From positions 5,399,053-5,463,052 of the forward strand of contig CM055109.1 of assembly GCA_029204225.1 (NCBI GenBank): 64,000 nucleotides of DNA, written 5' to 3'. The notes beneath the pieces were generated by a model, which worked only from the letters and a program-made list of their open reading frames with translations, had not been told where the DNA came from and made no database searches. Shown in pieces: positions 8,593 to 38,002 of the stretch. Every line of letters starts with the position of its first letter. Position 1 is the first letter of the stretch. Position numbers and translations under genes: made by a program. Origin of the DNA: Diphasiastrum complanatum. Taxonomy: Eukaryota; Streptophyta; Lycopodiopsida; Lycopodiales; Lycopodiaceae.

Positions 8593-8853
8593 ATGCGGAA
8601 GTGGTGGAGTTGCCGGCTGTCGCAGTTGCTGTAGAGCTTGCTGTTGCTTTTGCAGCTGCTGAACCTTTTGCCTTTGCAGAAGTGCGGCTTGATTCTGTTG
8701 CTGTTGACTCTGCTGTTGGGGGGAAGAAGCATTGAAATTTCCAGACCTGGGAGAATTCGTAAACGACATTGCAGAAGGCGGTGTGCCATTGATAGTTGCA
8801 CCTCCAAGTGCTTGCAAAGGTGATGGTATGGAGCCAAGCTGGGCTTGGGGACC
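8593..8853 (-). CDS. MED8: MED8 exon 7 (Gln-rich region)
   Basis: This exon supplies 87 codons in phase 0. It opens with GPQAQLGSIPSPLQ, passes MSFTNSPRSGNFNASS, then a Gln-rich run (SPQQQSQQQQNQ, LLQRQKVQQLQKQQQ) and ends LRQPATPPLPH. The acceptor is GATGCAG at 8854-8860 and the donor is CAT followed by GTATGG at 8592. Plant MED8 carries the same NSPRSG-then-polyglutamine transition. The Gln-rich part is expected to be disordered and to mediate contacts rather than catalysis. Downstream exons should continue a Gln-rich tail but were not found to the left. Confidence 0.85.
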
Positions 8854-9369
8854 CTGCATCAAAATAAAATAAACAATAATTATAAGTAAACAACCCCACT
8901 ATAAAAGCACAAAAGAAAGTATATGTACTGAAACAAGACCATCTTCCATGCAGGTTACATCAACACCTTTGCATTTCTTTGTACAAAAATTTCGCGCGTT
9001 GGAGACTCAACCTTCATGCTAATATGCAGAAATAGAGCACATGTCATTATGGAGACCTTCATGCATGCAATTGCTAGTGTTCCTTGCATGTATGCTACCT
9101 TTTATTTAAAATATTGTACTGGCTACTCATGAGATGTCTGATTCCTGGTCTTCTGATGGAACTGTTCACTACCTATATTCACCCAGTCAACAATCTGCCA
9201 CTCATACAAGGTCGCTCTCAATCAGCCCACCAGTTCAATGTGATTGGTTTATTGGAGCCATGAAACATACTTTTGAAAGCTCTCATTTTGTATGTTCCAA
9301 AATACTTCCATTTGCCAATTTCACTTATATAGCCTAAATTATACCAATAGTTCTTTATGCTCTTTGAAC

Positions 9370-10030
9370 ACGTTACGAATGATTCGGGCGACGCCGTCAA
9401 TTCCATGTCAAATATTATTAGTGGAGTTTGCAGTGTCACCACAACAAATCAAGGTTATCTTCTGGCTCAACACATATACAGAGAAAGTCACCACAATTGT
9501 TGACAAGAAGATGCAATATCTTCACGACAAAGATATGCGAATCTCATCAGTATATTAGGAGGTTCATATTTCACACAACATCCAAAGAGTGTGGCAGGGT
9601 TCATTGGGGGTCAAGCCTGAATTCTATCAAACTCCGGAGCGAGACACAATCTGATATTCCTCACTACCTAGACTCTGGATTATCGCATTGCCTCAAATTT
9701 ACTCTAGGACGCATTGCCTCAAATTTACTCTAGGACAGTTTCGAGTCTCCTCTCATCATCTACATGTGGAGACTAGACGCTTTCGTGGCACCCCATGTGA
9801 GAATAGGATTTCTCAATTGTGTACTGCAGACGAGGTGGAGACTGAGGAGCATTACATTTTTAGATGCCTTGCATTTTACAATATCAGAGGGAGATATCAT
9901 TGCCTCCTTCGTAATCCGCCACTCACTTTGTGTTCACTGATATCATATGAGGAGTCACATTGTGTCATCTTGATGATAAATGAGACACTCCTGCTTCGGA
10001 GTGAACTTTGCTTAATAGACTCTTAAGTTA
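9370..10030 (+). pseudogene. LINE ORF2 3' end relic in MED8 intron 6
   Basis: In shifting frames this gives GLSHCLKFTLG near 9680-9710, ETRRFRGTPCEN near 9770, then the zinc-finger-like tail LCTADEVETEEHYIFRC and YNIRGRYHCLLRN to 9915, ending LLLRSELCLIDS at 10023. The same order of blocks closes the minus-strand LINE at 29889-32480, so both belong to one family. A short piece of 21-23 bp (CATTGCCTCAAATTTACTCTAGG) is duplicated around 9687-9733. The fragment lies opposite in orientation to MED8 and is 5'-truncated, as LINE copies typically are. Confidence 0.75.
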
Positions 10031-10321
10031 GAAACATTATTAGAGGCGATGCAAAATATTCCCACCAAAGACCATCATAGAAATCAAAAACTCCCTAGTG
10101 CATCCTCCCAGCAGAGGGATGCTATTAGGAGAATTTTCTTTGACACGAGTGTGAATAAGGTTCGTAAAAGATAGTTTCAATACCATGTCATTATATATTG
10201 TATAGTAATCATGCATAAAAGACGCTTTATTATTCGTCCATAATGGATGAACGAAGAGCCATATGCATGAACTTTTGATGCATCAATTTTGAACTAAAAG
10301 ATCGAACACTAGAAGTGAGAC

Positions 10322-10395
10322 CTGCTGAGTTCCACCAGACCGAACAAAACCAGTCGTCAGTGCAACTGATGTTGGTGTTTTTGGGAGGCCACTAC
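10322..10395 (-). CDS. MED8: MED8 exon 6
   Basis: A 74-bp exon. With the G carried over from exon 5 it encodes GSGLPKTPTSVALTTGF and VRSGGTQQ and ends in phase 0. The acceptor is ATATGCAG at 10396-10403 and the donor CAGCAG|GTCTCA at 10321. The Ser/Thr/Pro-rich content fits the low-complexity linker between the conserved N-terminal half and the Gln-rich tail. It has no strong family signature by itself; the call rests on the splice sites and the fit of phases on both sides. Confidence 0.7.
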
Positions 10396-10851
10396 CTGCA
10401 TATAAGTAAAATGTGCAGAGATTTATTTCAAACTACTTCCAAAAAAAAGTTGAAACAACCTGTACTATTTTGCATGACCATTTAACATGCAAGGGAGCAG
10501 AAATCTATATCTTGCTCTGCTAGCTTTGCAGGATGATCATGAAAAACTAGACTATCTGATTTGAAGAATCTATGATATATGGTAATATGCTATCAAGGTG
10601 TAAGATAAACTGAAAAAATTCTATAGATATCAACATACAACACCCAAACAGTTACATCTGAAGCAGATAGGTGTTCAATGTGGTTATACTGTGTAGATTC
10701 CACATTCGTACTTAGCTGAAGTTAAACAAAACTCAAACAAAAACTATGTTAGACCAACCAGCATCCTTCCTGCTTAAGTGAAAAAATAGCAGCAGCTATT
10801 GTAACATTGGGTACTATGCACAGCAGTTTTTATGCATAGCTTCCATATCAC

Positions 10852-10965
10852 CTGAATCAGTGACTTGGAAAGAAGATGGAGCACTGTCTCCCATAGCAAA
10901 TGATGGAGCTAGATGTTGTGGTAGAGAACCGGATACCTGGCGTTGATCGGGAGATATCCGAAGTC
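10852..10965 (-). CDS. MED8: MED8 exon 5
   Basis: A 114-bp exon that completes the Gly codon begun in exon 4 and reads GLRISPDQRQVSGSLPQHLA and then SFAMGDSAPSSFQVTDS. The acceptor is GCTACAG at 10966-10972 and the donor TTCAG|GTGATA at 10851. The GLR-x-x-PDQRQ block directly after the NYGEG of exon 4 is a diagnostic plant MED8 junction, and the two pieces lie 10.6 kb apart. It belongs to the end of the conserved half of the protein. Confidence 0.88.
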
Positions 10966-11099
10966 CTGTAGCAAAGCAATAGAGCAGTATACAAACTCTA
11001 ATGTTATTCCTTGTAAAGATATGAATATCAGCAAGAAAGGAACAATTTCTCAAGGAAGAGCTACTAAAGTACACTAGGTGCCATAGAGCAAGCATTTTC

Positions 11100-13580
11100 T
11101 AAAATTGGACTTCTAAGGGACAAACTAACCCTAAAATGAGGGTTCCAAGAATTTCTTACTTTGAAACATTACCAACAAGACTCATTATCATGGAACAAAA
11201 AGTTCTTGACCAAGCTCAGTTAGAGTGTCTGGGTCCACTCAAGGTCATCAATCACCAACAAGCCTCGATGTGGAATTAAATCTTGGCGTGACCAATAATC
11301 TCGAACACTGGAGGGCCGGTCTACCATATTAGGACTATTCCATGCCCTTAACAGAATATGGCCGTAACAAACAACATGCACAATACATAGTAGTAGGAGT
11401 AACCATAGTATCAAATAAACCTTTCAAACCAACTTCCAGTTTCCAATTTGTGTTGTTCCCAGTTTGTTTTCAAGGGCTTGTGGTTTTTTTGATTATGAGA
11501 CCAACTTGGTCAAGAAATGGATCCTCAAAAGTGATAGTTTACAATTTGAGGGGGGGGCTATAGGTGAAGGAAAAACAATAAGCTATGTGACTTGCACCTA
11601 CTCTAGGGTGCTGATGATGTGGGTAGGGATGTTGTAACTTTGGGTCCATGCTATGCATGATGAAGTTGATGGTCTAAGATTTTGTGGTCGGACTCCATAG
11701 GGTTAATTCTCTCGTCTCCTTTGTTATGTTAGGTATTATCCTAGATGTATAATTGTATTAACGGACATGCCATTCTCATTTGAGATCTTCGTCCAAGTTA
11801 CGGCCAGCTGTTTTGTGCTAGTTCTTTCTATCTTCAAGTGGTGCTTTATGCCCTTGGGCTATGCTTGTTAGTCAGGCTTTGAGCAAGCAAAAGTGCTGAA
11901 ATGCAAATGTAAACTTTCCTTATTTTTTTCGTAAGGAAGTAGGAACTTCGTTTAATTTGCTTTGTTGTTTAGTGCTAGCCTTCATCATGACTAAGTCTGC
12001 CCTTCACCTTTGGAGAAATAATATGTTGGTCTTTCTATATGAAAGATAATGTGGTATGTTTGGGCATGTGTACTAGGGATGTCATATCATTTGGTTCATG
12101 CTATGCCTGATGAAGTTGATGGTCTAAGAAGTCATATAGTGATTGCCAACCAAGAACACCATTTGAACATCAATAGGCTGATCCTCAAGTAGATCATAGA
12201 TCAACCTTCCTTAAAAGTAATGAGTCTCTTACAAGAACTCTGAAGACTCTAGAATTCAAACTGTAAAATGATCTGTAGGATTCCTGCTATAATGTTTGGG
12301 GACCCTGGGAAAATTTTCCCATCCGCAAAACGGGAAAAGATACGTCATCACATTGTGGTAAAAGTTATCTAGAAAATGTCATATGACAGTCATATCAAAA
12401 TTTCATCAAATTCATCCATCAGATACTTGTAAAATTGTTACACAAATAATCAATAGCATATTATAGTCAATATAATCTTTAATTTGAATGACATGAATTT
12501 CAATTGAGCTTCATTAAGTTCTTTACACCTTGAAATTATCCAAAGACCAAATTTTTTGAGTCTAGAATAATAAAATGGATTAAGTCTTTACAGTGATAGT
12601 TACTGAATTGGAAACTTCAAACTCAAGTGGCTAGTACCTTCAATGTGCTGTAGCATCCGTAACTCCTTCCATCTCATCATCCAAGATTCCGAGTCTAAGT
12701 GTGCCCCCCAATGTATCTTCTTGTAGAAGGATCATTCAAGCAATCTATCTTAGGTTAGCATTCATAGAGATTAGGCCATTTGCCCCGAAATGGGCAAATT
12801 TACTCCAAAGCCTCTCACAAGGAGAGGAGTTGTATCCATGTCATATTTTCCTTACGAGTTGTTTATGGGCAGTGACTGAATAATTGAAGATCGTAATGGG
12901 CTCGTTACGTAGCTTTGCGCTTATAGACTTTGACTGCATGAATGGAACTATATTAACTTTATGCATTTAGGGAGAGAGAGGATAAATCCAACATGGATAG
13001 CGTCCGGAAGGTTGGACGGGAGGTGGTCACAGAGTCGTGAAGCAATATCTGCTGCAGCAAGGGGGTGTCAACAACATAGTGCTCCCACCATTCCACCCCT
13101 CACAAGAAATTTGTCTTCTTGAGCATGTTTCTAACATGTCATTTCCTTGTCCCTCCTATAAAAACAAAAGCTGGAATCTCAAATCTTGAATTTGATTTTT
13201 AGGTACCAGGTTACACAAAGTCTTTTCTGATGTAACCTCCACCTCTTGATCTGACTCCTATTTTTTGCCTTGAAACTCTTGATCAACTACGTGCCCTGCT
13301 GTGCTGCATGCATTGCATGTGCCTACTCTTGCACTTGAGCATTGACGAAGTGAGTAGGGACGTCATAGCATTTGGTCTGTGCTATACATGATGAACTTGA
13401 TGGTATGACACTTTTGCGGGTGGACCCCCATAAGGTTGAAGATTGCATGCTTCTTGTGCTATGCAAGGTAAAATTTTAAACATAATGTTGACATACGAAA
13501 GATAGCATCATCATATCATTATTATTTCTATTGAAACAACTTGGGATGATTGGGAGACATCTTGTGTTAAGCTAAGAGAC
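11100..13580. repeat. MED8 intron 4, with three dispersed copies of a decayed repeat
   Basis: No gene in this part of the intron. A recognisable word, ATGCTATGCATGATGAAGTT followed by GATGGTCTAAGA, recurs with changes at about 11615-11700, 12070-12140 and 13350-13440. Each copy is preceded by a TAGGGATGT-like block and two are followed by a GGTCGGACTCCAT-like block. They may be fragments of one older retroelement; I cannot name it. Confidence 0.6.
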
Positions 13581-13584
13581 AGAG

Positions 13585-14104: not shown

Positions 14105-14267
14105 ATGGTGCCTGCCTCTGTGACAGCCGCTGACCTTGTGGTAGCAGAGCGGCCTTTGCCTACTTTTCCTTGGTCTTCTTCATCCGAGACATCGACACTG
14201 CTGCCCTCTTCCTCATCTGACAAGATCTATGCAGCTGCAGAGGACCTATATTGTTATGCTAGAGATC
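14105..14267 (+). pseudogene. LINE ORF1 N-terminal part, cut by gypsy LTR
   Basis: An ATG at 14105 opens 55 codons without a stop: MVPASVTAADLVVAERPL, then a Ser-rich tract and IYAAAEDLYCYARDQ. The frame ends at the gypsy LTR boundary. On the other side of that element (from about 19030) the sequence resumes with a coiled-coil-like stretch, EVDALRLEVQQLKL. I infer that the gypsy split a single LINE ORF1. No homology to a known ORF1 N-terminus can be claimed for these residues, so the link rests on position and strand. Confidence 0.4.
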
Positions 14268-14712
14268 AATAAGCCTACAACCCGTATGTTAATTATGATT
14301 ATGAGGGGTTTGGAGCCCTCATGTGCATATGGTCATAATTAACGGTTGGAGGCCTAAACTCGTGATGGTGGATAATTATCGGTCTATCAATGAGTCATAA
14401 GGGAACTGGATGATGTGGCCCAGATAGGCTGCAGAGGTGTCCAGTGAGGTGTCACAGTGCGCTAGTAGTGGTGCATGGGCCTTGGAGGGTATAAGTATAC
14501 CCATTGGGCTCTCACTAGTGTATGCTTGATTGTGGTGCTAGTAGCTACATGCTGCTGGTATGACTCCTCTATCCCTTGTGAGTGATTGATCCATAGCTTG
14601 GGGGCTAGATCCGTAAGATCTAGGTTTGATTGGGTTGGTTTGTCCACTATCCATTTCCCTTGTGTTGCTTTGTTCCGGCTTGCTTGGCTAGTGCATCCTA
14701 GTTATGGGCTTT
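14268..14712 (+). repeat. 5' LTR (end-truncated) of nested gypsy
   Basis: Matches 18580-19024 over nearly its whole length with scattered substitutions. It carries a TATA-like GGGTATAAGTATACCC at about 14488, which would be the element's core promoter. It ends GGGCTTTACA at 14712-14716. Confidence 0.85.
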
Positions 14713-14716
14713 ACAT

Positions 14717-17099
14717 TGGAAAAATTTTTAGTTAAAACTATAAATTATTGTTTACCAAAAGGGAAACCAATGCGATATGCAATATACCGTCCTTTTAAGA
14801 CCGAGGAATTTGATAAAAGAAGATTCAACTACAAATCTCTAGTGGTTTTATGCACTTTAAATTCAACCCATTATAGAGCAATCCTAATTGAATAGTGGTT
14901 TTATGCACTTTAAATTCAACCCGTTATAGAGCAATCCTAATTGAAATATCTTAATCAAATTCGTTCTTAATTGAATTATTCCAACTCATTCTTCCCCATT
15001 TCTAAATTTGTCACTCAAGGCATGACCTACAATCCTTTTAGTGACCGTAGAGATTATGAAAAGGGGAGGTAGAAAACACGAGTTGGAATTTGTTCTATGA
15101 AGTTGGAATTTGTGCCAATTCTCGAGAACTTCATATAATACCGATTCCAAAAATTGATTTTGGACGATTAGATCAAGTAGTGGAGGGTTTTCCTAGAGGA
15201 AAAACTTGTGGTATGGGACGCAGGCAATTCCAAAGGGGAGATCTGAAACTAACTGGATCTAATTGACCATAGTATGGCCGTAAATCTAAATGATGCCAGA
15301 TACTATGGGTCATAAAAGGGTGTTTTGTCGAAAATTTGAGATATCGGTCATGACCCCTTATGGATATCTCAAATTCACAAAACCGGAAACCCGGCAAGCT
15401 ATTTCTTTATATTAAGAATATATTTGTGAACTTCTTACATTTCATGTCATTCCTTGGGAAGGTAATTTTTAGTACCCGTTGACCATGGACGATGTCACAT
15501 GAATGGCTAATGAAATCATTTTCTAAAAATCGTTTCTCTTATATAAATCTTCAATAAATCCTTTTCTGATTATACAGGTCAATTCTCTATAATGGTAACA
15601 AAGAAAATCTTAAGATAAGTCAAGACTTTCAAGATTTTTTTGCAATTCTTCTTTGTAGCTTCTCCTTGGGCATATCTAGACTGATATGCACCCCTTGGAA
15701 ACTCGTGCGGTTTCTTGTTAAAAGGGGGAGAAGTAGGAAGAAAAGAACGGAGAAACATCTATCAAGGATTCCAAGAGAAATCCATTACTTGAATAGTTGA
15801 CGACCTGTTTCTTGAATCAAGAACAATAGGATATTTTGATATTACAGAAATCCTCTATGGATTATAGTAGATATCTAGTTAGAAGATGTAAGAGAAAGAA
15901 ATTAGAAAACACTCTTGTGGTAGAAGAGTTGCTGATTACAAGTCCGATGATTTGTATCAAAACTAGGGAATTCTATTGTAAGATAGTGGTTTCTTGAAAC
16001 CTGTTCCTTGCTAGTTGTAATCACCTTGATCTTAGAGGAACTTGGATCCGTGAGTTGATATATTCATGTTAACAATATATTCTTTTGAGATCATCTTCCA
16101 TTGAGATTTTGGTTGTGAAATAGCACTCTTTGAGAAATATTTTTTCTTAGAGTTAACTGGGTTACAGGATTCTCAGTTAAGAAGTTGTTTATAGATTGGG
16201 TAAAAGATATGTAGAGATATGCTATGTAGTGAATCATTGTGATCATCATTCCTTTGCGCAAGTTATCAATCATGTGGATCTACAATGCATGCATAAACTA
16301 GTCGTTAAAACATAGGCATATTGATGAGAATTGTGTAGAGACAATTTCTCGCTAGGTAATAGTGATTTCTCAATGAGAATTGCTTATTGACCTACGTGGG
16401 ATTAGAATCAGATTGAATGTCGTGTCTTGGATCCACCCCTAGACATTCAAAAATTTTCTAAATCCAATATGACTAACCGAGTCAGAAGAGCTACTTCTGA
16501 GTTAGTTGTTTGAATCAACAATAAACCTCTCTTATGGATATTGTTGTTAAAATGTATGGCTTATAAGTCGCAACCTTCATGAGTCATTTTTGGATTCATT
16601 TAGAGGGTTTTTGTGCATAGAAACTTTTGGCCTTAATCTTTTCCCGATTGAAAAGGATGAATGCTATCCCGGAAAACTCAGGTAGAGTTGGATAGTGGAT
16701 GGTAGCCAAAATTCCGAGTTTCACATAATGAAGTTCCAGTGAATCTTAAGTTATTCTAGATTAGAACTTAAGAGTAAAATCCAGATGTATTCTAAATTGA
16801 ACCCAAACTTTGGGATGATACTTTGTACCATGTCTAGAGTAAGGACGTTTTGAGGATTACAATCCTTATCTAGGCACCGTAAGTGAGTTGGGTAAATCTG
16901 AAACTTTCCAGATGGAAAGGACTTTTTAAAACAACTCATGTCGTCTAAGAATTGTGACACTTTCTTATGGTAAGGTATCTTAAAAATCTGGTGAATTGTA
17001 ATGAAAGAATCATAACTCAGACTCTCGGGTATACTTGATCAATAAGAGAAGACTTAGTTCATGGTGAGATTACCCCAGATGAATAAATAGGATAGCGGA
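14717..17099. other. gypsy internal region, unreadable
   Basis: Between the 5' LTR and the integrase remains I see no gag, protease or RT motifs. At 14838-14944 a 54-bp piece (TAGTGGTTTTATGCACTTTA and onward) is tandemly duplicated. An open frame at 14704-14895 with YRPFKTEEFDKRRF and LVVLCTLNSTHYRAI reads like a real protein segment, perhaps from an organelle or another element, but I cannot identify it. The remainder is AT-rich and full of stops. Confidence 0.45.
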
Positions 17100-18434
17100 A
17101 TTTTGGTAGGGATTGGCCATCTTACCAAATCGACAATGTTTATTCAGGTAAAGACCACCAAGAAAGCATTTGATTTAGCTCAGGTATTTGTCGAGCATCT
17201 GTTTAAGCTTTACAGATTACCAAGTGACATCGTGAGCATTAGCGATTCGAAGTTCACCGGTCACTTTTGATCGGCGGTATTCGCTAAATTGGAGACGACT
17301 CTGAGCTTGAGTTATTCTAATCATCCCATCGACAATCTCATTGGGAAAAGTATCTGCCCTTGATTGAGTTTGCCTATAATAAAGTATCATGTTCTCTTAT
17401 TATTGAGTATAGGACAAGGATCCAAGGAATTATGATTAACAAATCATAGTTCGGATTCTAGTTTATACTTGGTCGTTTAAGAGAAGGGTTACCTGCGTAA
17501 TCAAAAGATCAGATGTGTGCACTTATCTTTTGATGGTAATCTCCTCAAAGAGGAAGTAATCCTTGATGGAGATTACTTGTTTCAAAAGTAAGCATTAGCC
17601 TACCAGTTATAGTGGTAAATGCTTATGTATGGTTTTGAGCCTAGATCACCCATTATGGTAGAGACTCATATGATCAAGTTTCAGAAGGTAGTGGGTTTCC
17701 TGCACGATATACAAGAAATGCTACAGATACCAAGAGAAAATGTCCAGTGTGCCCAGAATAGGGACCGACATTATGCTAATATGAAAAGATCGTCTCAAGA
17801 CTTTCAAGTGGGGGATTGGGTGTATTTGCGAATCCCAAAGGATTCTAGGGTAATGTGTACCGGCAAGCATTACAAATTGTCCCCTAGATATAGAGGATCG
17901 CATCTATATAATATAAAACGTTAGTGGGGCAGCGCTAACGCGTGAAGGGCAGCGTTACCGCTGCCCGGACGCCCCCCCCCCCCCCCCCTCGCGCTTTCCT
18001 GCACATGAGCAGCTCGCGCTGCCCGTCACAGCGTGACGGGCAGCATCAACTGCCCGGGACCCCCCCTCCCTTTTTTTCAATTTTTTTTCCCTCCCCTCCC
18101 ACACGGGCTCTTTGCCCACCTGCCCTGCCCGCCCAAAACGCATGCCCGCCTGCAAGTCTGCGGGCGCACATTGCTAGTTAGATCTTGAAAAAGATTGGAT
18201 CCTTAGCTTACTAGTTGGACCTAGTTGGACCTCCCGAAGGGAACTCAAGTACAGCCGGTTTTTCACGTAAGCCGACTCAAGAAGAGTCTACATGAAGGGG
18301 AGCATCTTGGTTCTGAAGACCAATTGGACCTGTTAGATGAATTATCAGGTGTGTCCCAAATTGAACCCGAAAAGATCTTGGATACAAGAACTAAACAATT
18401 GAGGAATCGTATAGTTACCGAGTATTTGGTTTGA
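17100..18434 (+). pseudogene. gypsy integrase and chromodomain-region remnant
   Basis: 17110-17340 encodes the integrase core with KKAFDLAQVFVEHLFKLYRL and DSKFTGHF before a stop; 17345-17400 continues with YLPLIEFAYNK. 17619-17920 carries the C-terminal half: MLMYGFEPRSPIMVE, RSSQDFQVGDWVYLRI and KLSPRYRG. After a GC-rich insertion the frame resumes at 18182-18434 with KKIGSLAY, FHVSRLKKSLHEGE, PEKILDTRTKQLRNR and EYLV. In a live element it would insert cDNA and bind chromatin. Stops, frameshifts and the insertion make it inactive. The chromodomain aromatic cage is not clearly preserved. Confidence 0.82.
17920..18181. mobile_element. GC-rich 250-bp insertion in gypsy integrase
   Basis: A strongly GC-rich block with a 16-base C run splits the gypsy reading frame exactly between KLSPRYRG and KKIGSLAY. 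Flanking GTTAG pentamers (17920-17924 and 18177-18181) may be a 5-bp target duplication. The word CAGCG and its complement recur, and the 5' end can fold (GGGCAGCGCTAACG with GGGCAGCGTTACCGCTGCCC). No open protein with recognisable content is seen. Type unknown. Confidence 0.55.
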
Positions 18435-18542
18435 TGGAAGGGTCGCACAGACAATGATGATTCCTGGGAACATGAAGGGCTTAAGGAGACAACTTCCCTA
18501 GCTTTAAGTTCTGAGGTCAGAACTTGCATAAGGGGGGAAGAA

Positions 18543-19024
18543 TGTCATGCCCACGATTGGTCTCGGATAGTATGTCTCATTAGGCCTACAACCCGTATGT
18601 TGATTATGATTATGAGGGGTTTGGGGCCCTCATGTGCATATGGTCATAATTAATGGTTGGAGGCCTAAACTCATGATGGTGGATTATTATGGGTCTATCA
18701 ATGAGTCATAGGGGAACTGGATGACGTGGCCCAGATAGGTTGTAGAGATGTCCAGTGAGGTGTCACAGTGCACTATTAGTGGTGCATGGGCCTTGGAGGG
18801 TATAAGTATACCCATTGGGCTGTCACTAGTGTATGCTTGATTGTGGTGCTAGTAGCTACATGCTGCTGGTATGACTCCTCTATCCCTTGTGAGTGATTGA
18901 TCCATAGCTTGGGGGCTAGATCCGTAAGATCTAGGTTTGGTTAGGTTGGTTTGTCCACCATCCGTTTCCCTTGTGTTGCTTTGTTGCGGCTTGCTTGGCT
19001 AGTGCATCCTAGTTATGGGCTTTA
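18543..19024 (+). repeat. 3' LTR of nested gypsy
   Basis: Begins TGTCATGCCC right after the polypurine tract and matches the 5' LTR from 18580 on. It contains the TATA-like GGTATAAGTATACCC at about 18797. It ends GGGCTTTATA, where the 5' copy has TTTACA. Confidence 0.85.
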
Positions 19025-19029
19025 TATAT

Positions 19030-21593: not shown

Positions 21594-21777
21594 CTTCACC
21601 ATAGTTTGCAGCATTTCGAAGTAGTTTTTCTTGTTCGATGACCTTTGCTGTGTGTGCTTTCTCCATGGTAGGAAACGAAACTGGACCTTGACGAGTTCCC
21701 AATCCATAAACTTTTCGAGTGTCAGCTAGCACTTTCTCTGCTATATCACAGGCAGATCTTACCATCTCTATTTTTTT
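21594..21777 (-). CDS. MED8: MED8 exon 4 (core helical region)
   Basis: A 184-bp exon, phase 0 at its start. It encodes KKIEMVRSACDIAEKVLADT, RKVYGLGTRQGPVSF, EKAHTAKVIEQEKLLRNA and NYGEG. The block VLADTRK-x-YG-x-GTRQGP is the clearest MED8 signature in the window. The acceptor TTTAACAG (21778-21785) and donor GAAG|GTGGTT (21593) are consensus-like. Reading on past the donor gives unrelated sequence and a stop, supporting the splice. Intron 3, separating it from exon 3, is only 103 bp. Confidence 0.93.
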
Positions 21778-21880: not shown

Positions 21881-22005
21881 CTGCAGATATTCGGATTGTG
21901 CAGGTAGAGAAAGGTTAGATAAGCCTGATAGAAGTTTATCCCTTAACATAGACTCCTCCACTTCCATCTCAGGTAACAGTTTTGATGATAGCATAATAGG
22001 CAATA
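21881..22005 (-). CDS. MED8: MED8 exon 3
   Basis: A 125-bp exon completing an Ile codon begun in exon 2: ILPIMLSSKLLPEMEVEESM, then LRDKLLSGLSNLSLPAQSEY and LQ. The LP-x-MLSSKLLPEME block is highly conserved in plant MED8. The acceptor is ATTTGCAG (22006-22013) and the donor CTGCAG|GTACCT (21880). It ends in phase 0 and continues into KKIEMVRSACD of exon 4. Confidence 0.93.
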
Positions 22006-24300: not shown

Positions 24301-24970
24301 AATGCATTTTGATCACGTTCCGAAACAAGCATTCCAGAACAGTTTCAAGAAGGTGAAAAAAAACTTTAAAATACATCGCAAAAGTTCGTAAATTTTCAAT
24401 CAAATTATCAATGATCATTCACGCATGGTGTTTGATATTCTTACAGTCCAGACTCCAATTTATTATCATACTATACAATCATACACATTGAGCTGCCATA
24501 TAGAGTGACGAGTTATTCGATGACCACCTGCACTACATTTGCACCCCTACCTCGATGATTGTTGCATGTAGATGCTCATAAAAGAACACTCCTGACTCAA
24601 TAGAGCCAGATCCACACCCCTAAAAAATACAGTGCCCAAAGGACATGAAACCAAGATGCTGACAATAGGCCAATGCCTAATATCAATCCAACTATCAAAT
24701 AGAACACAATCATATGTGGCCCAAATATGTCATATGGGGCTGAGCTCTCCCAAGATGCATGCAAGCTCCTTCCTCAAACGGTGAGCGCACAGACCCTTGC
24801 AGGTGGGGGTTCTCCAAGTTGCATCACAAGTTGCCACGACAATCAATAGGCCCTCTCTCAACTGACTCCTCCAATGGAAATGCCTCTCCTATATATTTAT
24901 GGCCCTAATGCTACTGCTGATGGAGGCCATGATGGCCCTATCTCTCCAATGGAATCTGTGATGGGCCTAA
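24301..24970. other. non-coding intron sequence
   Basis: No gene seen. The stretch 24880-24960 holds GATGGAGGCCATGATGGCCC, related to the minisatellite at 29660-29790 on the far side of the LTR element. This suggests the element landed within or beside that sequence. Confidence 0.5.
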
Positions 24971-25411
24971 GTTATGGACTCGGCTCATAACATTCGCCGC
25001 GTCCATTTACATTTACTTTACTTTATGCATAAGCAAGGCTTGGGCCCTTTTTTACTCATTAGTGACACTTAGACTACATGGTTGGCCTTTGGCCTTATTA
25101 GTCATTATTAGGCCATTTGGACATATTACTGGAGAGTGGGGGCCTTCTTGGAGGGCGCACTATTTTCCCTCCCAGTTGGGCCCTAGCCACCGGAAGCTTC
25201 CTTTTAGGGCTTCTTCTTGGCTATAAGTAGGGAAACTGTGTCATTTGTTATTCAGCTAATGATATTGATCTCTCTCTCTAGTCTCCTTAATCTCTCTCTT
25301 TCCTGCTTTCTAGGGTTAAGTCTTGCTTATGTGCTGCTTTCATAGCTTAAGTCTTGCTTATGTGATGCTTTCATAGCTTAGCTCTAGATCAGTTGTGGCT
25401 CTAATCGTAAC
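24971..25411 (+). repeat. 5' LTR
   Basis: Matches 29144-29580 with few differences. It carries a TATA-like GGCTATAAGTAGGG at about 25220 and a CT-rich downstream region, as expected for the element's promoter. An internal pair of AAGTCTTGCTTATGTG copies lies at 25318-25365. Confidence 0.9.
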
Positions 25412-25412
25412 T

Positions 25413-25424
25413 TGGTATCAAAGC
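25413..25424 (+). promoter_or_regulatory. primer-binding site, tRNA-iMet type
   Basis: TGGTATCAAAGC two bases after the LTR end; the consensus is TGGTATCAGAGC, with one mismatch. It would prime minus-strand cDNA synthesis. Confidence 0.85.
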
Positions 25425-25449
25425 ACTTTCCTATGCACTACTTTTTCAG

Positions 25450-26130
25450 ATTTAGTAGAGGTTGTCCAGCGCCCTACTAACCCATCACTTTCGTCGATTT
25501 TTTCATCAGCTTTCCATCGTTTTTCCAGATTTGGTAGAGGCTGGCCAACGCCCTACGACCTTGTCACTTTCGTTTTGCTGCCCATTTCGTGGCTTGATTA
25601 GAGGCTGTCCAGCGCCCTACTTCATCACCATTTTCAGCGGTTTTCTCCATTTTTTTTCAGGTTATGTGCGGATTTTGGTAGCTACTGCCCAGCGCCCTAC
25701 TACCTTGCCACGGATTTCTCCACCGATTTGCTGTCCATTTTGCTGATTGTTTGGAGGCTGTTCAGCGCCCTACTTCATCTTTTCCATCATGTTGCAGGAC
25801 ATTTGTGGATCTTACTAGCTGCTGCCCAGCACCCATTTTCAGCTTGGATCTTCAGCTCTCTCTCTCTCTTTAGCCTCCTATCCAAAAATCACCCAATTCC
25901 GTAATCGTTTGCTATTCCAACTTGCCAAAATCCTGCAATTTGTTCATCGCTGCCCCAGCCCTTCCGACTTGTCACTTTCGCCTTTTATTTTATCCATTTC
26001 CAGCCATCTTTCACAGTTTATCAAAAGGCTCTCCATCGCCCATCCTCAACCACATTTCACGGAATTCCGATTCCGTTTGATATTCCAATTAGACATTTCC
26101 CTCCTAGCTGTCCAGTGCATTTTTACAGCC
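25450..26130 (+). repeat. leader repeat array with GTCCAGCGCCCTAC core
   Basis: The word GTCCAGCGCCCTACT recurs with variations at about 25463, 25548, 25608, 25690, 25763, 25828 and, more decayed, 25950-26115. The spacing is about 60-85 bp and each copy is preceded by a GTAGAGGCTG or GCTGCTGCC block. The array lies between the primer site and gag, i.e. in the packaged leader of the element. Confidence 0.75.
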
Positions 26131-26259
26131 TTCATTTTCACTTTTTCCATTTGCTGATTGCTGCCCTTTCTTAGTTGTGATAATATTGGTTTTAATAGAC
26201 TAATTTGGGGTGACGACAAGAGTCCGCTCCCTCAAGTTTTCGTCTATTCCTTCCACTAT

Positions 26260-27046
26260 CATTATGGCACATTCACCTACCCTGAGTGAAACTGTTCAGG
26301 AAAACTTATCCGATCAATTTCGGCGCATGGATGAAATCCTTTTTGGCCTCGTTCTTCGCTTCGATACAGTTATGACCGGCTTTCCTACTATGCAATCACA
26401 TATTGATTCTTTACAGCCTCATGGTCCTGGAAAAAGCTCCTGTCTTTCCTTCATTTGGGACTCCCCTCCATTTGGATTTCCATCTTCTTCTGCTAGTCAG
26501 CCTAGTGGTGGACCGTTCATTCCACCTAACCCACCTCCTGGTTTCTTTCCACGTCCCAGCCTCTCAGTGTTGAGGTTGCTCGTTCCCATTCTTTTCCCAA
26601 TCCTCAGATGATTCAGGGCTTGGATTATCGCATTGGTGATTTTTTTGGTCAGGCAGATTTCTACATCATTTCTCTGAAGCACTATGACATTATTTTTGGT
26701 GCAGCCTGGTTCTCTTCACTTGGTACTGTTGTTGTGGATCTCTCTCAGCACACCTTCCTTTACTCATGCTGGTCAGCATCATTCACTTGTTGGTACTAAT
26801 TCCCAGGGTGACTATCAATTGGTTACCGGGAAGCAGTTTATGCGTAGCCTGCCAAAGGCTCAGGATGCAGCTCTTCTTTCCATTCAGAGTACATCAATTG
26901 CTGCTTCACTTTCACCATTCGTGGGTCCTCTTCCTCAGGTTGATGCTCCTTCGGATTTACAGGTTGTTGTTGTGTGCCTTGTGCCTATATGCCTTGATTC
27001 ACAAATATTGTATTCAGTGGTCATTCCTGGTTTCATTGATATTTAG
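26260..27046 (+). pseudogene. gag-like and protease-end remnant
   Basis: 26264-26611 starts MAHSPTLSETVQENLSDQF and has a helical segment then a Pro-rich tail (PPNPPPGFFPRP), like a short gag. 26608-26760 in another frame reads DYRIGDFFGQADFYIISLKH, YDIIFGAAWFSSLG and VVVDLSQHTF, which fits the C-terminal half of a retropepsin (the D-x-I-x-G-x-x-W block). The catalytic DSG triad itself was not seen. One more frameshift leads to LVTGKQFMRSLPKAQDAAL until a stop at 27046. A live relative would encode capsid and protease. Confidence 0.65.
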
Positions 27047-29051
27047 GCCGTATACCTTGGTGGTATTTCTACTATTGCTTTTGCGCATACCTCAAATAGC
27101 CCTCCTGGTTCGATGCTTGGTGCAGTATCTTCTCCATTGGTCTCTATATCTCCATCTCTTGAGTCCGCTATGGCTGATGTTCCTGCTGATTTCTATGGGG
27201 TTCTTCACGGGGTCCACGTTTGATGGTTCCCTCGCTATTGGTGATCAGGTTGTATCTTCTTTCGCTTTACTCCATGGATCTCTGCTTGAGGTTTGTGAAC
27301 CACCTCATGATATTTCTACGGTTCCTTATATGATTCTTGCGCCTTTGGCCCTTACCGTTACACATTTTCCATCCGAGGATATTTGCGAGATGGTCACTAT
27401 TACTTATCTAGGGTATTTATATGTTGGGATCTTTCTGGATGAGTATACGGGCATCCTTCAGTCTCCTTGTGTTTCTACATATAGGTTTGCTGCAGTCCAT
27501 TCCGATGCTATGGATATATGGCATTCCTGGTTATTACGTATAGCTTGGTTTCCATTTGGACCTGTTGATTGGTGCTGGTTTTTCCATATTACTGATCGCC
27601 TATGGTGCGGATATCTCTATGATTATGCATGTGGCTCTCTATCTATTCCTTGGATTGTTGCTCATTGTCAGGCTTGGCATATCTTGATGGCTTGGGTTAT
27701 TGCCTCCATTCCAGCTATTGTTTGTCCAGGTGATCGTCAGATTCCTCGTCATTTCAGTTTGCTCCATATCGCTTGGTCTCCGATGCTGAGTTGCCACTTT
27801 GTTCTGGTTTTCCGAGGCCATCAGATTACCTTGAGAGAGTTCCTTCTCCTCTCTTGGATAGTTTTTGGGGACGTTGCCGCCATATACTTCAATATTGCTC
27901 ACATGTGCTTTGATACTCATTCCCAGCTACACGTGGATATTGATCCGATGCTTGCTACTGATGTTGGAGATCCTGTTCCTCGTTCCAGTGCATTTCTTCT
28001 ATTCCTCACTTGTGCGCCTGGTGTGTACTTTGGGATTACACTTGCGGCCAGTTCCGATGGGTCATCCGATTCTCCATCCGTTTTTGGTGTATCCTATGAT
28101 GGATTGGTATGTCCACATGAGGTCTTTCTGGATGAGTTTTTCGGCTACAGTTTTTCAATTGAGGCCTCTACTATTTCTAGATTTGTTGCTATTGTTTTTA
28201 TGCATCATGCCTTTTAAAATGATGCATTGATTTCTTGGACCTTCTTGAGCTTTTGGCATGCTGCTCTTCTCGTGATAGGGGCCTTGAAGGTACCATGTGC
28301 CATTGCTACTTCTCATTCATGGGCCTTATGGATACCTTGGGCTTTTGACCATGCTGGTGCACATTTCTCCATTTTACCTATCCTTTGTCAGGATGATCTC
28401 TTTATGATCCATGTTTCCTGGCATATCGCTTGCTTTTCCATGCTACTACAGCGTGCCTGTCATCCTGCTTATGTTCCTACTCCTTGGTGCTGGTCTTCCG
28501 ATGCTGTTATCTTTTCTTGGGGCACCTATATCACTAAGTTTGCACATATGGTTGATGGCTACATGTATGATGTGGCTATTCGCGATGAGTGTCCATCTCT
28601 TTTCCAGTTTTCTTATTGGCTTCCCGTTGCTAATGCAGTTCTACCTTCTCGGGCTTTTTGGATACCTTGGTATGATGTCCCTATCTTTTGGGCTGATCCT
28701 CTACTATCTTGGGCATTACGGATACCTTGGCATTCCTGGTTGCTGCTTGATCTTCTTCTGGTTCCTTGGCATTCTTGGTTGTTCCATATTGCTTGGTTTC
28801 AGATGACGCGGCCGAGATGTTCCCTTCGTCACCGTGATGTTGATCCTGAGCTGTTCCCTTTCTTACCAGCTGCCATTCACCAGGTTCGCCTTCACCATAG
28901 TCGCTGTTGCTGGCAGATTCAGCTTTTGGTCCAGATCGATGGTCGTCCTGTTGAGGAGGCCACATGGGAGCCTATTGATGTCTTTTATCATACACCATCA
29001 CTTGCGAATCAGGATCGTGCTCCTCCTGCACTTGTTGATTCCTCTACATAA
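26766..29051 (+). CDS. long Trp-rich open frames of unknown nature inside LTR element
   Basis: Two adjacent open frames (26766-28217, 483 codons; 28227-29051, 274 codons) fill the space where pol should be. The residues are hydrophobic and Trp-rich, with recurring pieces such as WHSWLL, RIAWF, RIPWHSW and WIPW. The underlying DNA repeats TTGGATACCTTGG and TTGGCATTCCTGGTT. The last 80 residues of the second frame include LLVQIDGRPVEEATWEP, which resembles the end of a gypsy chromodomain and may be genuine. The rest has no motif I recognise. The strand is poor in A, which lowers stop frequency, so the long frames may be a composition effect. Confidence 0.35.
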
Positions 29052-29143
29052 GATGTTGCTCTAGTTGTTGATGCACCAGGACTTGCTGTTGTTTGATCCA
29101 GTTTCTTTTTTGCAGTTGGGTCTTTTTTTTGGTGTCGAGGAGA

Positions 29144-29580
29144 GTTATGGACTCGGCTCATTACATTCACCGCGTCCATTTACATTTACTTTACTTTATG
29201 CATAAGCAAGCCTTGGGCCCTTTTTTATTCATTAGTGACACTTAGACTATATGGTTGGCCTTTGGCCTTATTATTCATTATTAGGCCATTTGGACATATT
29301 ACTGGAGAGTGGGGGCCTTCTTGGAGGGCGCACTATTTTCCCTCCCATTTTCCCTAGCCACCGGAAGCTTCCTGTTAGGGCTTCCTCTTGGCTATAAGTA
29401 GGGAAACTGTGTCATTTGTTATTCAGCTGATGATATTGATCTCTCTCTAGTCTCCTTAATCTCTCTCTTTCCTGCTTTCTAGGGTTAAGTCTTGCTTATG
29501 TGCTGCTTTCATAGCTTAAGTCTTGCTTATGTGATGCTTTCATAGCTTAGCTCTAGATCAGTTGTGGCTCTATTCGTAAC
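29144..29580 (+). repeat. 3' LTR
   Basis: Partner of 24971-25411; differs by scattered substitutions and small indels (for example TTCCC in place of CAGTTGGGCCC near 29340). It contains the TATA-like GGCTATAAGTAGGG at about 29390. Confidence 0.9.
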
Positions 29581-29659
29581 TCCCTACCACTACTAAACCA
29601 AGTCGTGATGCCCTACGACTGATGGAGGTTCACACGATCTGTCCCACCTCTGCCAATGA

Positions 29660-29888: not shown

Positions 29889-32480
29889 TTGTAGGGTTGC
29901 CAGAGAGAGACAGAAAGAAAGAAAGAAAGCTTTATTAATGTCTTTTCCATGCCAAAAGGCATATAAGACCAAAAGGAGTGTCAATGTATGTGATAACCAT
30001 GGGAGCGTATATAAGCGTCTCCAAGAAAAAAAAAACTATGCATAAAAGAGAAATGAGTAATATAACTGTAAACTACAAACTGCCAACTGTCCATAAGTGG
30101 GAGCAAGAGCTGCCAGGAGTAGAGTAGAGTAGAGTAGTATCAGATAGTGTCATATAGTGCTGCTGCTGAAAAAAGACGTAATACGAGCTGTATTAGGAGG
30201 TATGGACCGTCGCTGACGTCGTCTAGGAGGGCGAAAACTGTGTACTCTCGTAACAAGGCGAGAATGTGAACTGCTGCATGACTATGAGTGATACACTGTC
30301 TCTGACACCGGTGAGGTGGTATGTCATCGTCATCGTCGTCAGGACGTGTCCGTCTCCTGGTGAAGAAACACGTAATCTGAGCCTGAGAGCTAGGATGTGG
30401 CTGGTGAGCTGTCTGGTACATATCCCGGCGCAGCAAGACCATCTCTCGTATCATAAGTGCAACACAGCGAGAGTCCTCATATCCCATCAGTGCTCTGAGT
30501 GTAGTAGGCATGTCACGGAATAAACAATGATATCTCTCTCTAATCTCATAATATATGGGGCATCTGAAGATGAAATGCTCCTTGGACTCTATCTCATGTA
30601 GGGGACACAGCAGGCATAGTCTCTCCTCTCGTGGTGTACCCTGGAATCTACCTGTCTCAATAGCCAACTGATGTGAGGAAACTTTGAACTATCCCAAAGT
30701 GAAACGGAGACCGTGTGATAGTCCAGAAGACAAATAGCGTAAAACTGGAAGACCAGTAAACCTTTTCTTTCCTGTGTCTAGCTTCCTCGATGATGGTTCA
30801 GAGTGTGAATATGTGATATGTAGTGGAATAATGAGCGCGGAACCCTGCCTGACCCAAAGCATGTAATCTCCTGGACTCTGCTTCTGAGCTAACTGCAGAC
30901 TGGAGGATGACGCCATATATCTTCGCGAGGACATGTCCAATCATAATAGTGCGGTAATTACCAGGTACCATGGGGTCACCGTTTTTATGGATAGGATGTA
31001 TGATGTTGGTGCACCAAGAGGATGGGAAGCCCTCAACAACAGCATGGTTAAGGAGAGTGGATAATGTAGGGGCAAGGGTATCGAGGGCGTGAATCAGTAG
31101 CTCAAACTCAAGATCTTCAATGTCTCTGGTGCGGTGGGTTTTTAGCTTTTTGATTGCTGCCCGAACCAAGTCCGGGGTGAAGAAGGTGAAGTCTGAAGGT
31201 CGAGGAGAGATGGAGATGGGCGTATCAATGGGTATTGTGTAAAGCTGGGTAGCATAGTCAGTCCAAATATGTAAATCGTCCAGGAGAGGGGGACGGGCAC
31301 AAGGGATAAACTCATGCCAAAAGGCACCAGAGGAGGAGCTGTGAAGGAGGTTCACAAGACGGTTTCCTTCGAAGTCGTCATAGGCACGTTTTTTGCAACG
31401 GAGTGTGCGGTTGTACAATTGTCGTGAAGAGCGGAGGAGATGGCGTTCGTGGAAACGAGCATGTGTGACAGAGTGGTGAAGGGATCGGCATTCCGCGTCA
31501 TACCACGGCGGGTGGAAAGGTCGGGATGATCGTGGATGGACTGGTTGGTGTTTATGAGGTTTAGAGGGGAAAGCCAAAGTAGCCGCAGAGTGGAGACAGG
31601 TGGTGAGGAAGGCGGCTTGTGATTCCAGTGATTCACTGTGTGGAAAAGAGTGAAGTAAGGAGGTGAGGGATTCCTGGTAGAGTAGGATAGAGAGGGGATG
31701 GAAGGTGTATTTGGGTGCACGGGGAAGGATGGTGGACTGGTGTTGAAGTTGTGGTGGTGGAAGGTGGCCAGTAGCGAAGGATAGGAACGAATGATCAGAG
31801 AGGGTGGTATGGGAGATACGGAAGCTGTGAATGAGAGGAATGGATGACGGTGACCCCATGAGGTAATCAACCACACTATGACCGCCACTGTGAGGGTGAC
31901 ACGTATAGCTGCCAGAGTTAGGCCAGTGAGGTAGGCCATTATAAATGGCTAACTCATGTGCCTCACCAAACTGCAACAGGTACTCACCATATGAAGTAAT
32001 AGGTCCCGGTCCATCATCGGAGATCCTGGTGATCCCCAAGCTGTCACTATCCAAGGCATGAACTCGCAACTGATCTGTAGCATCATGGAACTGTCTGTCG
32101 TGAAGTTGTCCGGGCATTAAAATCCCCAATGAGGAAAATATGCCCCTGCTCTACAAATCTGATGATATCCACTGAAAGGTCCAAGTAAGGTGAGCCAACA
32201 CCCTCAGCAAAGCAGGAGGACTCTGGAGAAAAATAGCAGGCAGCAATGAAGACGTCCCTGTCCAAACCAATCGCTCATCCTGTGATACGAAGCCAAATAT
32301 ACCGTGCATGCTCATCATGCTTGACGAACTCAAACATCTGATGAAGGGACTCTCTGTAGAGACAAGCCACTCCTCCCAAACCATGGCCACTGGCTGATCT
32401 AGTCTCAGATCTGTATACTGATTCCCATCTGTAGAAGGGCGAAGGGGTAGGACTGTCCTACGGGCAGCACGAGGAGGGGC
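29889..32480 (-). mobile_element. internally deleted L1-type LINE in MED8 intron 2
   Basis: A minus-strand non-LTR element in the same orientation as MED8. The 3' end near 29889-29935 is a (CTTT)n tract next to AATAAAG; the 5' end lies near 32480, just inside a GA microsatellite. It contains endonuclease, the start of RT and a zinc-finger-like tail. The RT palm and thumb (about 300-400 residues in this family) have been deleted at about 30800. Confidence 0.82.
30200..32480 (-). pseudogene. LINE ORF2: endonuclease, RT start, zinc tail
   Basis: Right to left: endonuclease from about 32450 with VFIAACYFSPESSCFAEG, GHIFLIGDFNARTTSRQ (32270-32090) and, in the open 443-codon frame 30798-32129, GGHSVVDYLMGS and TLSDHSFLSF. 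Asn and Asp of GDFNAR and the SDH motif are catalytic in this nuclease family. Next come HPPWYDAECR and the RT opening KNGDPMVPGNYRTIMIGH with LGQAGFRAHYST. At about 30800 the frame jumps to GLSHGLRFTLG and ETGRFQGTPREE, then the tail CLLCPLHEIESKEHFIFRCP and YEIRERYHCLFRD. The FADD-type catalytic box is missing. Frameshifts occur near 32100 and 30750. It cannot be active. Confidence 0.85.
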
Positions 32481-32629: not shown

Positions 32630-32633
<4 letters not shown>

Positions 32634-32676: not shown

Positions 32677-32677
<1 letters not shown>

Positions 32678-32679
32678 AA

Positions 32680-34936: not shown

Positions 34937-35061
34937 TTGGAGCATTTTCCACATTAACACTCTTGGGATAAGCCACAAACACTTTCAGCATAGGCTTGAT
35001 GTCCTCGACTAGATTTAGAAGCTCCATATTGACAATCGCAAATTGCCCCAGTACTTCAGAC
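34937..35061 (-). CDS. MED8: MED8 exon 2
   Basis: A 125-bp exon. With TG from exon 1 it reads WSEVLGQFAIVNMELLNLVE, then DIKPMLKVFVAYPKSVNVEN and AP. The W-x-x-x-LGQ-x-x-x-VN-x-EL-x-N-x-VE-x-I block is a conserved MED8 helix. The acceptor is ATCCATCAG (35062-35070) and the donor CCAA|GTGAGT (34936). It was too short to stand out as an open frame and was found by looking for the expected continuation. Confidence 0.92.
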
Positions 35062-37766
35062 CTGATGGATAAATACCCAACGCAAAGTAACTCTACAGGT
35101 CTAGAAACAATTGAACGCTATTAAAAGGTTATAAAATAAAGCTTTGTGATTTGGATTTATTGCAACTGTGATTATCTGGCCTGTTTGTGGATATTCGTGT
35201 GAACCATTGCTTCTTGGTGATGATAAAATTCAGGTTTGACATGTCAGAAGCATAGATCCCAGCCCTATGGAACAAACTCATCCCATGCAGACCATCATTT
35301 TTTATTTTTTACTCATCAACAAGTGAAAAAAATCATGGTGTTTGCGATACACATTTCACTTGTACATACAGAGTGAAACGTACTTTGATCAGAAGACACA
35401 AGTCATATCAATTCCAAATTTGTAACACTCAAATCAAGGATATAAATTCAATATTTATTGGATTCCAAGCACTCATATCAATTTCAGATTTGTCAAATTC
35501 AAAAACATTAGGTGGCCACTTCTGCTCAGCCGGCCAGTTTTTTCTATTGACAAGTGACAGTAATTCGATGCTCCCTATTTCTGACAGCAAAGTCAGAACA
35601 TCTAATACAGTTGCGCTGTAATAGCCATTTTCACTACCAGGCAACTTGCAAGTGTTCAGCTTTGGCGTGGATCTCTGCAGAGAGGGCATGCTTGGAAAGA
35701 GCAATAAGAGTCCGCTACCACTGGTAATGGCTGCATGCAATTTGACCAGCATGCAGAATACATGCATGTTAATGGCATGGCTTTCAGATCATTTTTCCCT
35801 TGTTGGACAGCAGCAGCAACATGCGAACAATTAGCCAATGACCTGGTTTGCAGCATAACAGAAATGCATGGCTACACAGTTGCATGGAAACTCACCAGCT
35901 GTTAAAAACAATCGATTTATTTGAATGGAGCTCATGAGTTTGAAGGGAGCTCATGAGCTGCTGAAATATGAGAGACCGAATGAGTTAAGGCCCCAAAGAA
36001 TGGAATGGGAGAACCCTAACCTCTCAAAGGGCACAGGCCAGACATTAGAGAAAGGCTGCACCTTATAGAGGATGCTTTTGCTTTCAGATTTTTCTTTACC
36101 AAAAAACGGGACTTAAGTTTCATATTGTTGGGCAGAATTTTGCTAGGACAAAAAATTCAGTTCATTGAGCTAGCATTAGTTTTGCACAGAATGAAAGATA
36201 CCAAACAAAGTCCGACTTTGCTCAATATTTTGGATATTTGAAATCATGACTGTCTGCAGTGAGTACCGGTAAGAGATTTTACAACCCTTTAGCTCCTTCA
36301 CTAAAGGGAGTACTAAAAGCCCAAACTTGGTGTAGATTCACAAATTTTTATGTAACACTCGTTGTTGTTCAGTAACAAAACATTCACCATAGTAAATGTG
36401 ATAATTTTGTAACTACCAAATATTATTGTGGAACTGAACGAATCCAATGTTACCAACTAGTGAACCGGATAATTCCAAAAGCTTGGGAGAATGTGAAAGT
36501 TTGGTATTTTTTTAGAAGGATTTCCGTTATAGTATGAGAATTGCAACCATGGAATTGCAAAACCAAGTTTGAAATGCATGTTGGGCATTAATTTGAGCAA
36601 TTTGCGGTAACAGTGATATTAATGGCCGGCAAGGTCTGCTAGCAATATCTGAGAAAGCTTAGTCTTAAGCGTAGTTGAAATGTTATAAAATCTCTTAATT
36701 AATTCTTGTTTTTCCTACAACAGAAACATAAACGCTTAGAGCGTATCTCAACAAACTCAATGAGGAGATAACAACAAATATAAGCAAGGACAAGGAGAGG
36801 AGTGAGAGGTGCAGGAGATGAAGTGGATTTGGAGAGAACAACAACAAAAATGGAAGGACTCGGACGAGAAAATGTAGAATGGGGAGGATGAGAAAAGTAG
36901 GAAACTTAGGATTTATGATCCTCATGTTGTAAGCATAGATGCATCGCGTTCAAAAACGCAGCGTCCCCATCACGTTAAGGAACAATGCGTGTCGGAAAAC
37001 GTTTCGAAATTTAGGGTCGTTTTTAGAGCAGAAGGTATTCTTGGGGTTTTCCTTTTAGATTTTTTAGGTGTCTTTTGGGGGGGCGGGGCTAGAAAGTATT
37101 AGAAAATAGTGATAGGTATTAGGTATTAGGATAATAAATTATACACATAGTTGCATCAAAACTAAGTTTGCGTTGCTACATTTTTAAATCGCACAAAACA
37201 TTGAATAACATTAAACAACCCTTGTAAATTTACACTATAGCTATAAGACTACTATTCATGCACCTAGAAGATGTTCTGACAGCTCAAGTCCTGTTGAGAA
37301 TCCTTTTACTTACTAAGTCGTAACTTGTTGCACATCAGGCAAGGTATTTTGTTCTTCAACACAAACAAAACAAAGCAACTATTGAAGCAAGCTTAATCCA
37401 AAGTGACAAGACTTAATCCTCATGAGGTTTGACTTCCTCTCTTGGTAGCACCCCATCCTCGACACTCTAGATTTTTACCGTGCAAGATTTGGCTTTGATA
37501 TCACTGAGAAGGCATGGCCAGGAGTCACTAACCTAACATAAATGCGCCACACACATTAAAATCCCTACATTTTGAAAGGTACTATTGCTCCTAGATTGCG
37601 TGCTTTTTAATCGGGTTCCACAAGTTGTAACACGTCGCTGTAAGATAGTGGCAAGGGAGATGGCATTACATAAGGAAGCAGGACAAAAGAAAGGAACATC
37701 GTACCTGAGAGAACCACAAAGGCCAACAATGTAGCAAGAAACCAACTCCTCAATACGAAAATCAAT
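35062..37766. other. MED8 intron 1, no other gene seen
   Basis: Mostly AT-rich. A 112-codon minus-strand open frame at 35429-35767 shows no domain I recognise. A block at 36950-37090 contains AAAACGTTTCGAAATTTAGG and a G run (37077-37087) and may be an end of a small palindrome-rich element. Confidence 0.5.
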
Positions 37767-37805
37767 GATACATGCGTAGAGGGAAGCGGTAGAGCTGAAA
37801 CTAAC

Positions 37806-38002
37806 CATTTCAGAGATGGATTTGTGTGAAATGAATGAATAATCCGCGAGAGTGCACTGTGCAGATCTTGCGTGCGTGTGCGGATGGAAGCAAAGTTGAG
37901 CTGCTGTAGCAAGGGCGCCATGTCCGCCCTGGCCCCCGGCGGCTGAGCTTGGCCTTGCACTGCTTGCCCCTGCGCCTGAACAGAAGCATTGTTCATCGCC
38001 AT
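37806..38002 (-). CDS. MED8: MED8 exon 1 (start codon)
   Basis: Encodes residues 1-65 and two bases of Trp66: MAMNNASVQAQGQAVQGQ, then a short Pro/Ala linker and LLQQLNFASIRTRTQDL, HSALSRIIHSFHTN and PSLKW. The Gln-Leu-Asn start and the run to a Lys-Trp resemble the first helix of plant MED8, which ends in PKW before the splice. The donor is AAATG|GTTAGT at 37805. A second in-frame ATG is at codon 3. Upstream is a CT repeat and then copia-derived sequence about 80 bp away. Translation starts in a GGCG-ATG context. Confidence 0.88.

Follow-up and report, generated by a model that had tools for sequence, protein, structure and literature searches.

The DNA considered here is a window of 64,000 nucleotides (the whole stretch that was analysed) from the lycophyte Diphasiastrum complanatum, assembly GCA_029204225.1, contig CM055109.1, called C18 below. 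The window corresponds to C18:5399053-5463052, and a window coordinate equals the C18 position minus 5399052. Its minus strand carries a MED8 gene, the model of which was rebuilt at 8593-38002 with seven exons of 74-261 bases and 1080 coding bases. Exon 1 (37806-38002; referred to as copy 1A) begins with ATG and has an open frame, and is followed by exon 2 (34937-35061), exon 3 (21881-22005), exon 4 (21594-21777), exon 5 (10852-10965), exon 6 (10322-10395) and the Q-rich exon 7 (8593-8853). All seven were placed by a splice model, exon 1 also by its match to the Pfam family Med8. Introns 1 to 6 measure 2744, 12,931, 103, 10,628, 456 and 1468 bases; all six are of the GT-AG type and join the exons in phase, so that 360 codons are free of stops. 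For random codons the chance of this is about 3e-8, a rough guide only, since it assumes equal codon use and the exons were chosen as open. An earlier note on this DNA had proposed the same seven exons within 29.4 kb, with introns 2 and 4 of about 12.9 and 10.6 kb, in-phase joins and 360 stop-free codons; the present model reproduces it at the same positions.

The identification as MED8, likewise proposed in the earlier note, is borne out by the Pfam Med8 profile, which gives 31.4 bits for the 360-aa protein and 30.5 bits for its first 220 residues against a curated cut-off of 28.3. The gene does not end inside the window, where the first 8.6 kb of the 10,251-base intron 7 occupy positions 1-8592 of the minus strand. 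A read-through of exon 7 to a stop at 8422 was set aside because exon 8 joins in phase. A search of the 50 kb past the left window edge with a hand-typed plant MED8 C-terminus revealed four further exons, by which the gene continues for another 26 kb. Exon 8 (C18:5397393-5397328, minus strand) and exon 9 (C18:5397217-5397014, minus strand) were identified by similarity, with E of 0.004 and 1.8e-6, respectively. The matches of exon 10 (C18:5380667-5380601, minus strand) and exon 11, which contains the stop codon (C18:5373326-5372917, minus strand), are weak (E of 5.5 and 1.8). These two exons were accepted because they follow in order on the right strand, have GT-AG splice sites and compatible phases, and bring the reading frame to a stop codon; codon usage supports exon 11 in addition. 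Exons 8 to 11 thus lie on the same strand and in order, with GT-AG introns and phases that join up to the stop codon. Introns 7 to 10 measure 10,251, 110, 16,346 and 7274 bases.

The complete model has 1827 coding bases with the stop counted, and its 608 codons are distributed over 11 exons. It extends over 64,138 bases from ATG to stop, of which 2.8% are coding. The extent of at least 29 kb given in the earlier note holds for the window exons and is about half of this gene model. Within the Q/N-rich tail of the protein, exon 11 contributes 12 tandem eight-residue repeats, most of them of the form (S/N)LLNxxQ. Among the 12 repeat units, pN/pS is 0.26 in the proposed frame, whereas the two shifted frames give 1.14 and 1.98. 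The proposed frame of exon 11 is probably coding, since it is the only one in which synonymous differences between the units predominate. A literature search on octapeptide repeats of MED8 or Mediator in lycophytes found no paper.

The genome that was searched consists of 1,744,706,496 bases in 5176 contigs. A six-frame tblastn search with the 360-aa protein gave nine matches: the seven exons, a second copy of exon 1 discussed below, and one chance match (E of 7.1). A second MED8 locus, which if complete and combined with an absence of RNA would have spoken against the earlier note, was therefore not found in the 1.74-Gb assembly by this search. With an open 11-exon model and one locus in the assembly, the plant seems to have no other MED8 gene.

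Several points weigh against this description. Exons 10 and 11 were matched only at the E values given above, with a hand-typed query, and further small exons could have been missed by the model; the span to the end of exon 9, that is, without exons 10 and 11, is still 40,041 bases. The assembled 608-aa protein has no Pfam match at all, perhaps owing to the composition filter acting on the biased Q/N-rich tail. A Pfam-family search of the genome was silent at the MED8 locus and in its controls alike and is thus uninformative, and the PDB sequences contained no MED8 relative, with one chance match at E of 6.9.

The doubled exon 1 and its surroundings

Exon 1 is present twice, a feature absent from the earlier note. 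The second copy, 1B (38991-39187, minus strand), sits 1185 bases upstream of 1A, is 93% identical to it over 248 bases, the exon included, and has an in-frame stop, TAG, as its codon 9. Both copies form part of larger duplicated blocks on the minus strand. Block A (37767-38217) includes 115 bases of copia reverse-transcriptase remains, the 5′ flank, exon 1A and the start of intron 1, and block B (38952-39391) is 85% identical to it, with gaps. A degraded copia element on the same strand, with pieces of Pol_BBD, gag_pre-integrs and RVT_2, occupies 39275-41433 (ends approximate, set by eye). Its RVT_2 match immediately upstream of exon 1B has an E of 2.4e-6, below the curated cut-off, and copia remains stop about 100 bases before the ATG of exon 1A. 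In a genome search with block A, in which the best 40 of 122 candidates were scored, just 2 of the 40 matches listed (A and B themselves) cover the whole block; the other 38 stay within the 115 bases of copia remains at its beginning.

With the stop codon excluded, 1A and 1B differ by eight synonymous and six non-synonymous changes (dS 0.19, dN 0.042, dN/dS 0.22; p of 0.007-0.009 against neutrality). Such a pattern is compatible with constraint on one or both of the copies and is no proof that 1B is used. Copy 1A, which adjoins the gene body and is open, would be the working first exon, and 1B is in all likelihood a dead copy. Alternatively, transcription could start upstream of or within 1B, which would make 1B an alternative first exon; the product would be either a shortened protein begun at the downstream ATG of codon 28 or a regulatory RNA that encodes no protein. 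The donor site of 1B is kept, as is its frame after the stop, and 8 of the 14 differences to 1A outside the stop codon are synonymous. Nevertheless, this appears rather unlikely: the TAG at codon 9 lies in frame, and a dN/dS below 1 is expected also if the constraint acted on 1A alone.

The sequence between the two exon 1 copies turned out to be a patchwork. Patch P1 (38434-38756, minus strand; 323 bases) is 98% identical to C18:5358430-5358752 in inverted orientation, and the genome search listed no match elsewhere besides this one. Patch P2 (38196-38438, minus strand; 243 bases) is 93% identical to 60832-61070 of the window, which for most of P2 is again the sole further match in the list. 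P1 and P2 abut with an overlap of about 5 bases, and the remaining approximately 195 bases (38757-38951) had no match in the genome search. The idea that the inter-copy sequence is one dispersed transposon with a long target duplication was rejected because this search, which passes over very common words, lists just two partial matches beyond the block ends; they concern different pieces, and each lies on C18 at a distance of less than 80 kb.

P1 belongs to a larger inverted duplication of the gene flanks, compared here by matches of at least 100 bases and at least 84% identity. Blocks 87-98% identical and in the same order connect window positions 38434-58869 with -40300 to -66986 (C18:5332066-5358752), one of them matching in direct orientation too. 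Further upstream, pairs at 62383-62751, 63010-63344, 65314-65918, 68426-69004 and 71361-74102 match downstream sequence out of order. The inner end of the inverted duplication falls between exons 1A and 1B, and the downstream arm is devoid of 38757-43772, a stretch that holds exon 1B. For one flank block, a genome search gave 5701 candidates, which marks it as part of a transposon family. Its local partner is 91% alike, compared with 75-83% for the other scored copies (except for a 70-base piece at 86%), and because this partner is closer than the other scored family members, the comparison points to a local duplication of this block.

The doubling of exon 1 and the patchwork look like the result of an old break repair by template switching. 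A single simple event is disfavoured since the identities of the patches differ (98% vs. 93%). Templated filler DNA is a product of double-strand break repair in plants, and the present case resembles it in its short pieces with near copies close by and in the small overlap at the joins. In contrast to such filler, the pieces here are 240-450 bases long and one of them holds a coding exon.

Misplaced haplotigs were considered as a source of both the exon 1 doubling and the inverted flank duplication, which would then be assembly artefacts. Haplotig-like sequences do occur in the assembly: the match scores of some small contigs equal, or almost equal, those of chromosomal loci. However, such pairs are near equal in score. 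The local copies, in contrast, show 2-15% divergence along with large insertions and deletions, and an artefact is accordingly judged unlikely. Small contigs such as C3078, C59 and C1703 match like chromosomal loci and are probably uncollapsed haplotypes.

A more far-reaching scenario is that template-switching repair copied the MED8 promoter together with exon 1 and set an inverted flank copy of about 20 kb across the gene, and that the upstream exon with its stop is still transcribed and tunes the output of MED8. We consider this combination quite improbable.

Mobile elements and intron length

The introns contain several mobile elements. In intron 2, a long terminal repeat (LTR) element with LTRs 96.4% identical lies at 24970-29581. 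It was recognised by its paired LTRs and assigned to the plus strand from a sequence after the 5′ LTR that resembles what we take to be the primer-binding-site motif; its two long plus-strand frames match no Pfam family. It is followed by a stretch at 29902-32433 on the minus strand that resembles a long interspersed nuclear element (LINE), being endonuclease/reverse-transcriptase-like by eye, with Pfam zf-RVT at just E of 0.13. Pieces related to it also occur in introns 6 and 9, the one in intron 6 being a short relative at 9712-9998 (strand unassigned). Intron 4 holds another paired-LTR element at 14266-19027 (strand unassigned), with LTRs 95.1% identical. At neither of the two LTR elements could an exact target-site duplication be detected. 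Intron 7 harbours Ty3/gypsy remains on the minus strand at 4310-7260 (RT_RNaseH_2 with E of 1.9e-28; outer ends approximate, set by eye) and a fold-back element at 2348-4075 (strand unassigned), the arms of which, of about 345-375 bases, are 90% complementary. The paired LTRs, the gypsy RNase H and the LINE-like pieces identify mobile elements as a cause of intron enlargement, and the view of an intact MED8 gene with long transposon-bearing introns, put forward in the earlier note, holds.

The quantitative side of that view fared less well. Between 8593 and 38002, where at least eight mobile elements had been counted, four stretches were defined (two paired-LTR elements, one LINE-like stretch and one short relative), which make up 12.2 of the 29.4 kb, and the count was not confirmed. 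Recognised repeats amount to 24,530 bases, or about 38% of the MED8 gene, a figure from a hand-made list in which some stretches were recognised only by repetition within the locus. The statement that the gene is mostly transposon is thus correct as to transposons in the introns, while "mostly" is plausible and falls short of demonstration. For a 3.2 kb piece of intron 4, about 0.8 kb is covered by the best 40 of 4957 candidate matches. A stretch of about 160 bases in the same intron (11215-11381) has many genome copies at 90-94% identity and is perhaps a miniature element. Upstream of the gene lies a copia element (42103-48602) with 1.1 kb LTRs that are 85.7% alike and frames on the MED8 strand. 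Neither Rfam nor a tRNA scan gave any hit in the window.

For comparison, intron lengths in the same genome were estimated from 57 Adaptin_N and 70 MCM matches. Ten Adaptin_N and 33 MCM rows (small contigs, weak or isolated pieces) were omitted by hand and four further rows on small contigs by script, leaving 43 and 37. They represent 20 loci, 18 of them with at least two pieces. The sample consists of the 51 gaps at which two adjacent pieces are separated by no more than 12 missing profile positions; larger gaps that skip more of the profile, e.g., of 37,534 and 25,288 bases, were excluded. Gaps of at least 5 kb account for 7 of the 51 control gaps vs. 5 of the 10 MED8 introns (Fisher p of 0.019), and those of at least 10 kb for 3 of 51 vs. 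4 of 10 (p of 0.011). The MED8 introns are therefore on the long side, yet they are not alone in this genome, because control genes also have gaps of 10 kb or more.

Published accounts describe far longer genes. In Ceratopteris richardii, 706 genes exceed 100 kb and 17,745 introns exceed 10 kb (PMC9477723). MSH1 reaches 805,861 bases with introns of up to 101,025 bases (PMC10487979), DNA-PKcs genes of gymnosperms extend over about 107-794 kb (PMC10419180), and a fern genome has a mean intron of 4.9 kb (PMC12868710). A long gene is one of more than 20 kb according to Guo et al., as quoted in PMC10487979; MED8 exceeds this with its 64,138 bases, and with the 29.4 kb of the seven window exons alone. 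The size of the gene is ordinary for large plant genomes, since introns of at least 10 kb occur in other genes here and far longer plant genes have been published. The long genes of Ceratopteris, MSH1 and DNA-PKcs share with MED8 a coding sequence of normal size and long introns; transposons within introns are stated for Ceratopteris (PMC9477723) and MSH1 (PMC10487979), and for MSH1 partial gene duplications in its vicinity have been reported as well (PMC10487979). Nothing of substance sets MED8 apart from them, and its 64 kb are short beside the 806 kb of Cycas MSH1, the DNA-PKcs genes and the 706 Ceratopteris genes above 100 kb. Among the records listed by our literature searches, no title or abstract opening dealt with the length of this particular gene.

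Interpretation and meaning

Taken together, these data argue, with a probability of about 90%, for a normal single-copy nuclear MED8 gene with introns enlarged by insertions and exons unharmed, and with an exon 1 doubled by a separate, old repair. LTR, LINE-like and other insertions would have lengthened the introns while sparing the coding exons, so that the 608 codons of the 11 exons came to be spread over about 64 kb. The whole unit would be transcribed by RNA polymerase II and freed of its introns by the spliceosome. The separate repair at the 5′ end would have doubled exon 1 and left behind pieces with near copies close by, with 1A serving as the first exon and 1B probably a relic. Expression of MED8, use of 1A and the order of these events are what we infer from the sequence. 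That the locus is instead a decaying pseudogene still without a stop, the working gene lying elsewhere in the plant, is very improbable: it would suit the transposon load of the introns, the truncated copia that makes up the 5′ flank to within about 100 bases of the ATG and the stop in the second exon 1, but 608 codons are open over 11 exons with splice sites kept, the frame of exon 11 looks constrained, and the assembly yielded no other MED8 locus.

The encoded protein resembles plant MED8 in matching the Pfam Med8 profile and, presumably, in a Q-rich tail like that of other plants, which was compared solely with the hand-typed query. It differs in the 12 tandem eight-residue repeats of the last exon, known here from this gene alone. 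In Arabidopsis, MED8 is described as interacting with FAMA (PMC5841781).

Neither the gene model nor the patchwork changes current understanding. The present analysis provides a complete and checkable gene model for what appears to be the sole MED8 gene of this plant and a clear case in which the reading frame of a gene remained open during the growth of its introns. The patchwork at exon 1 may serve as a usable example of a coding exon doubled by local rearrangement.

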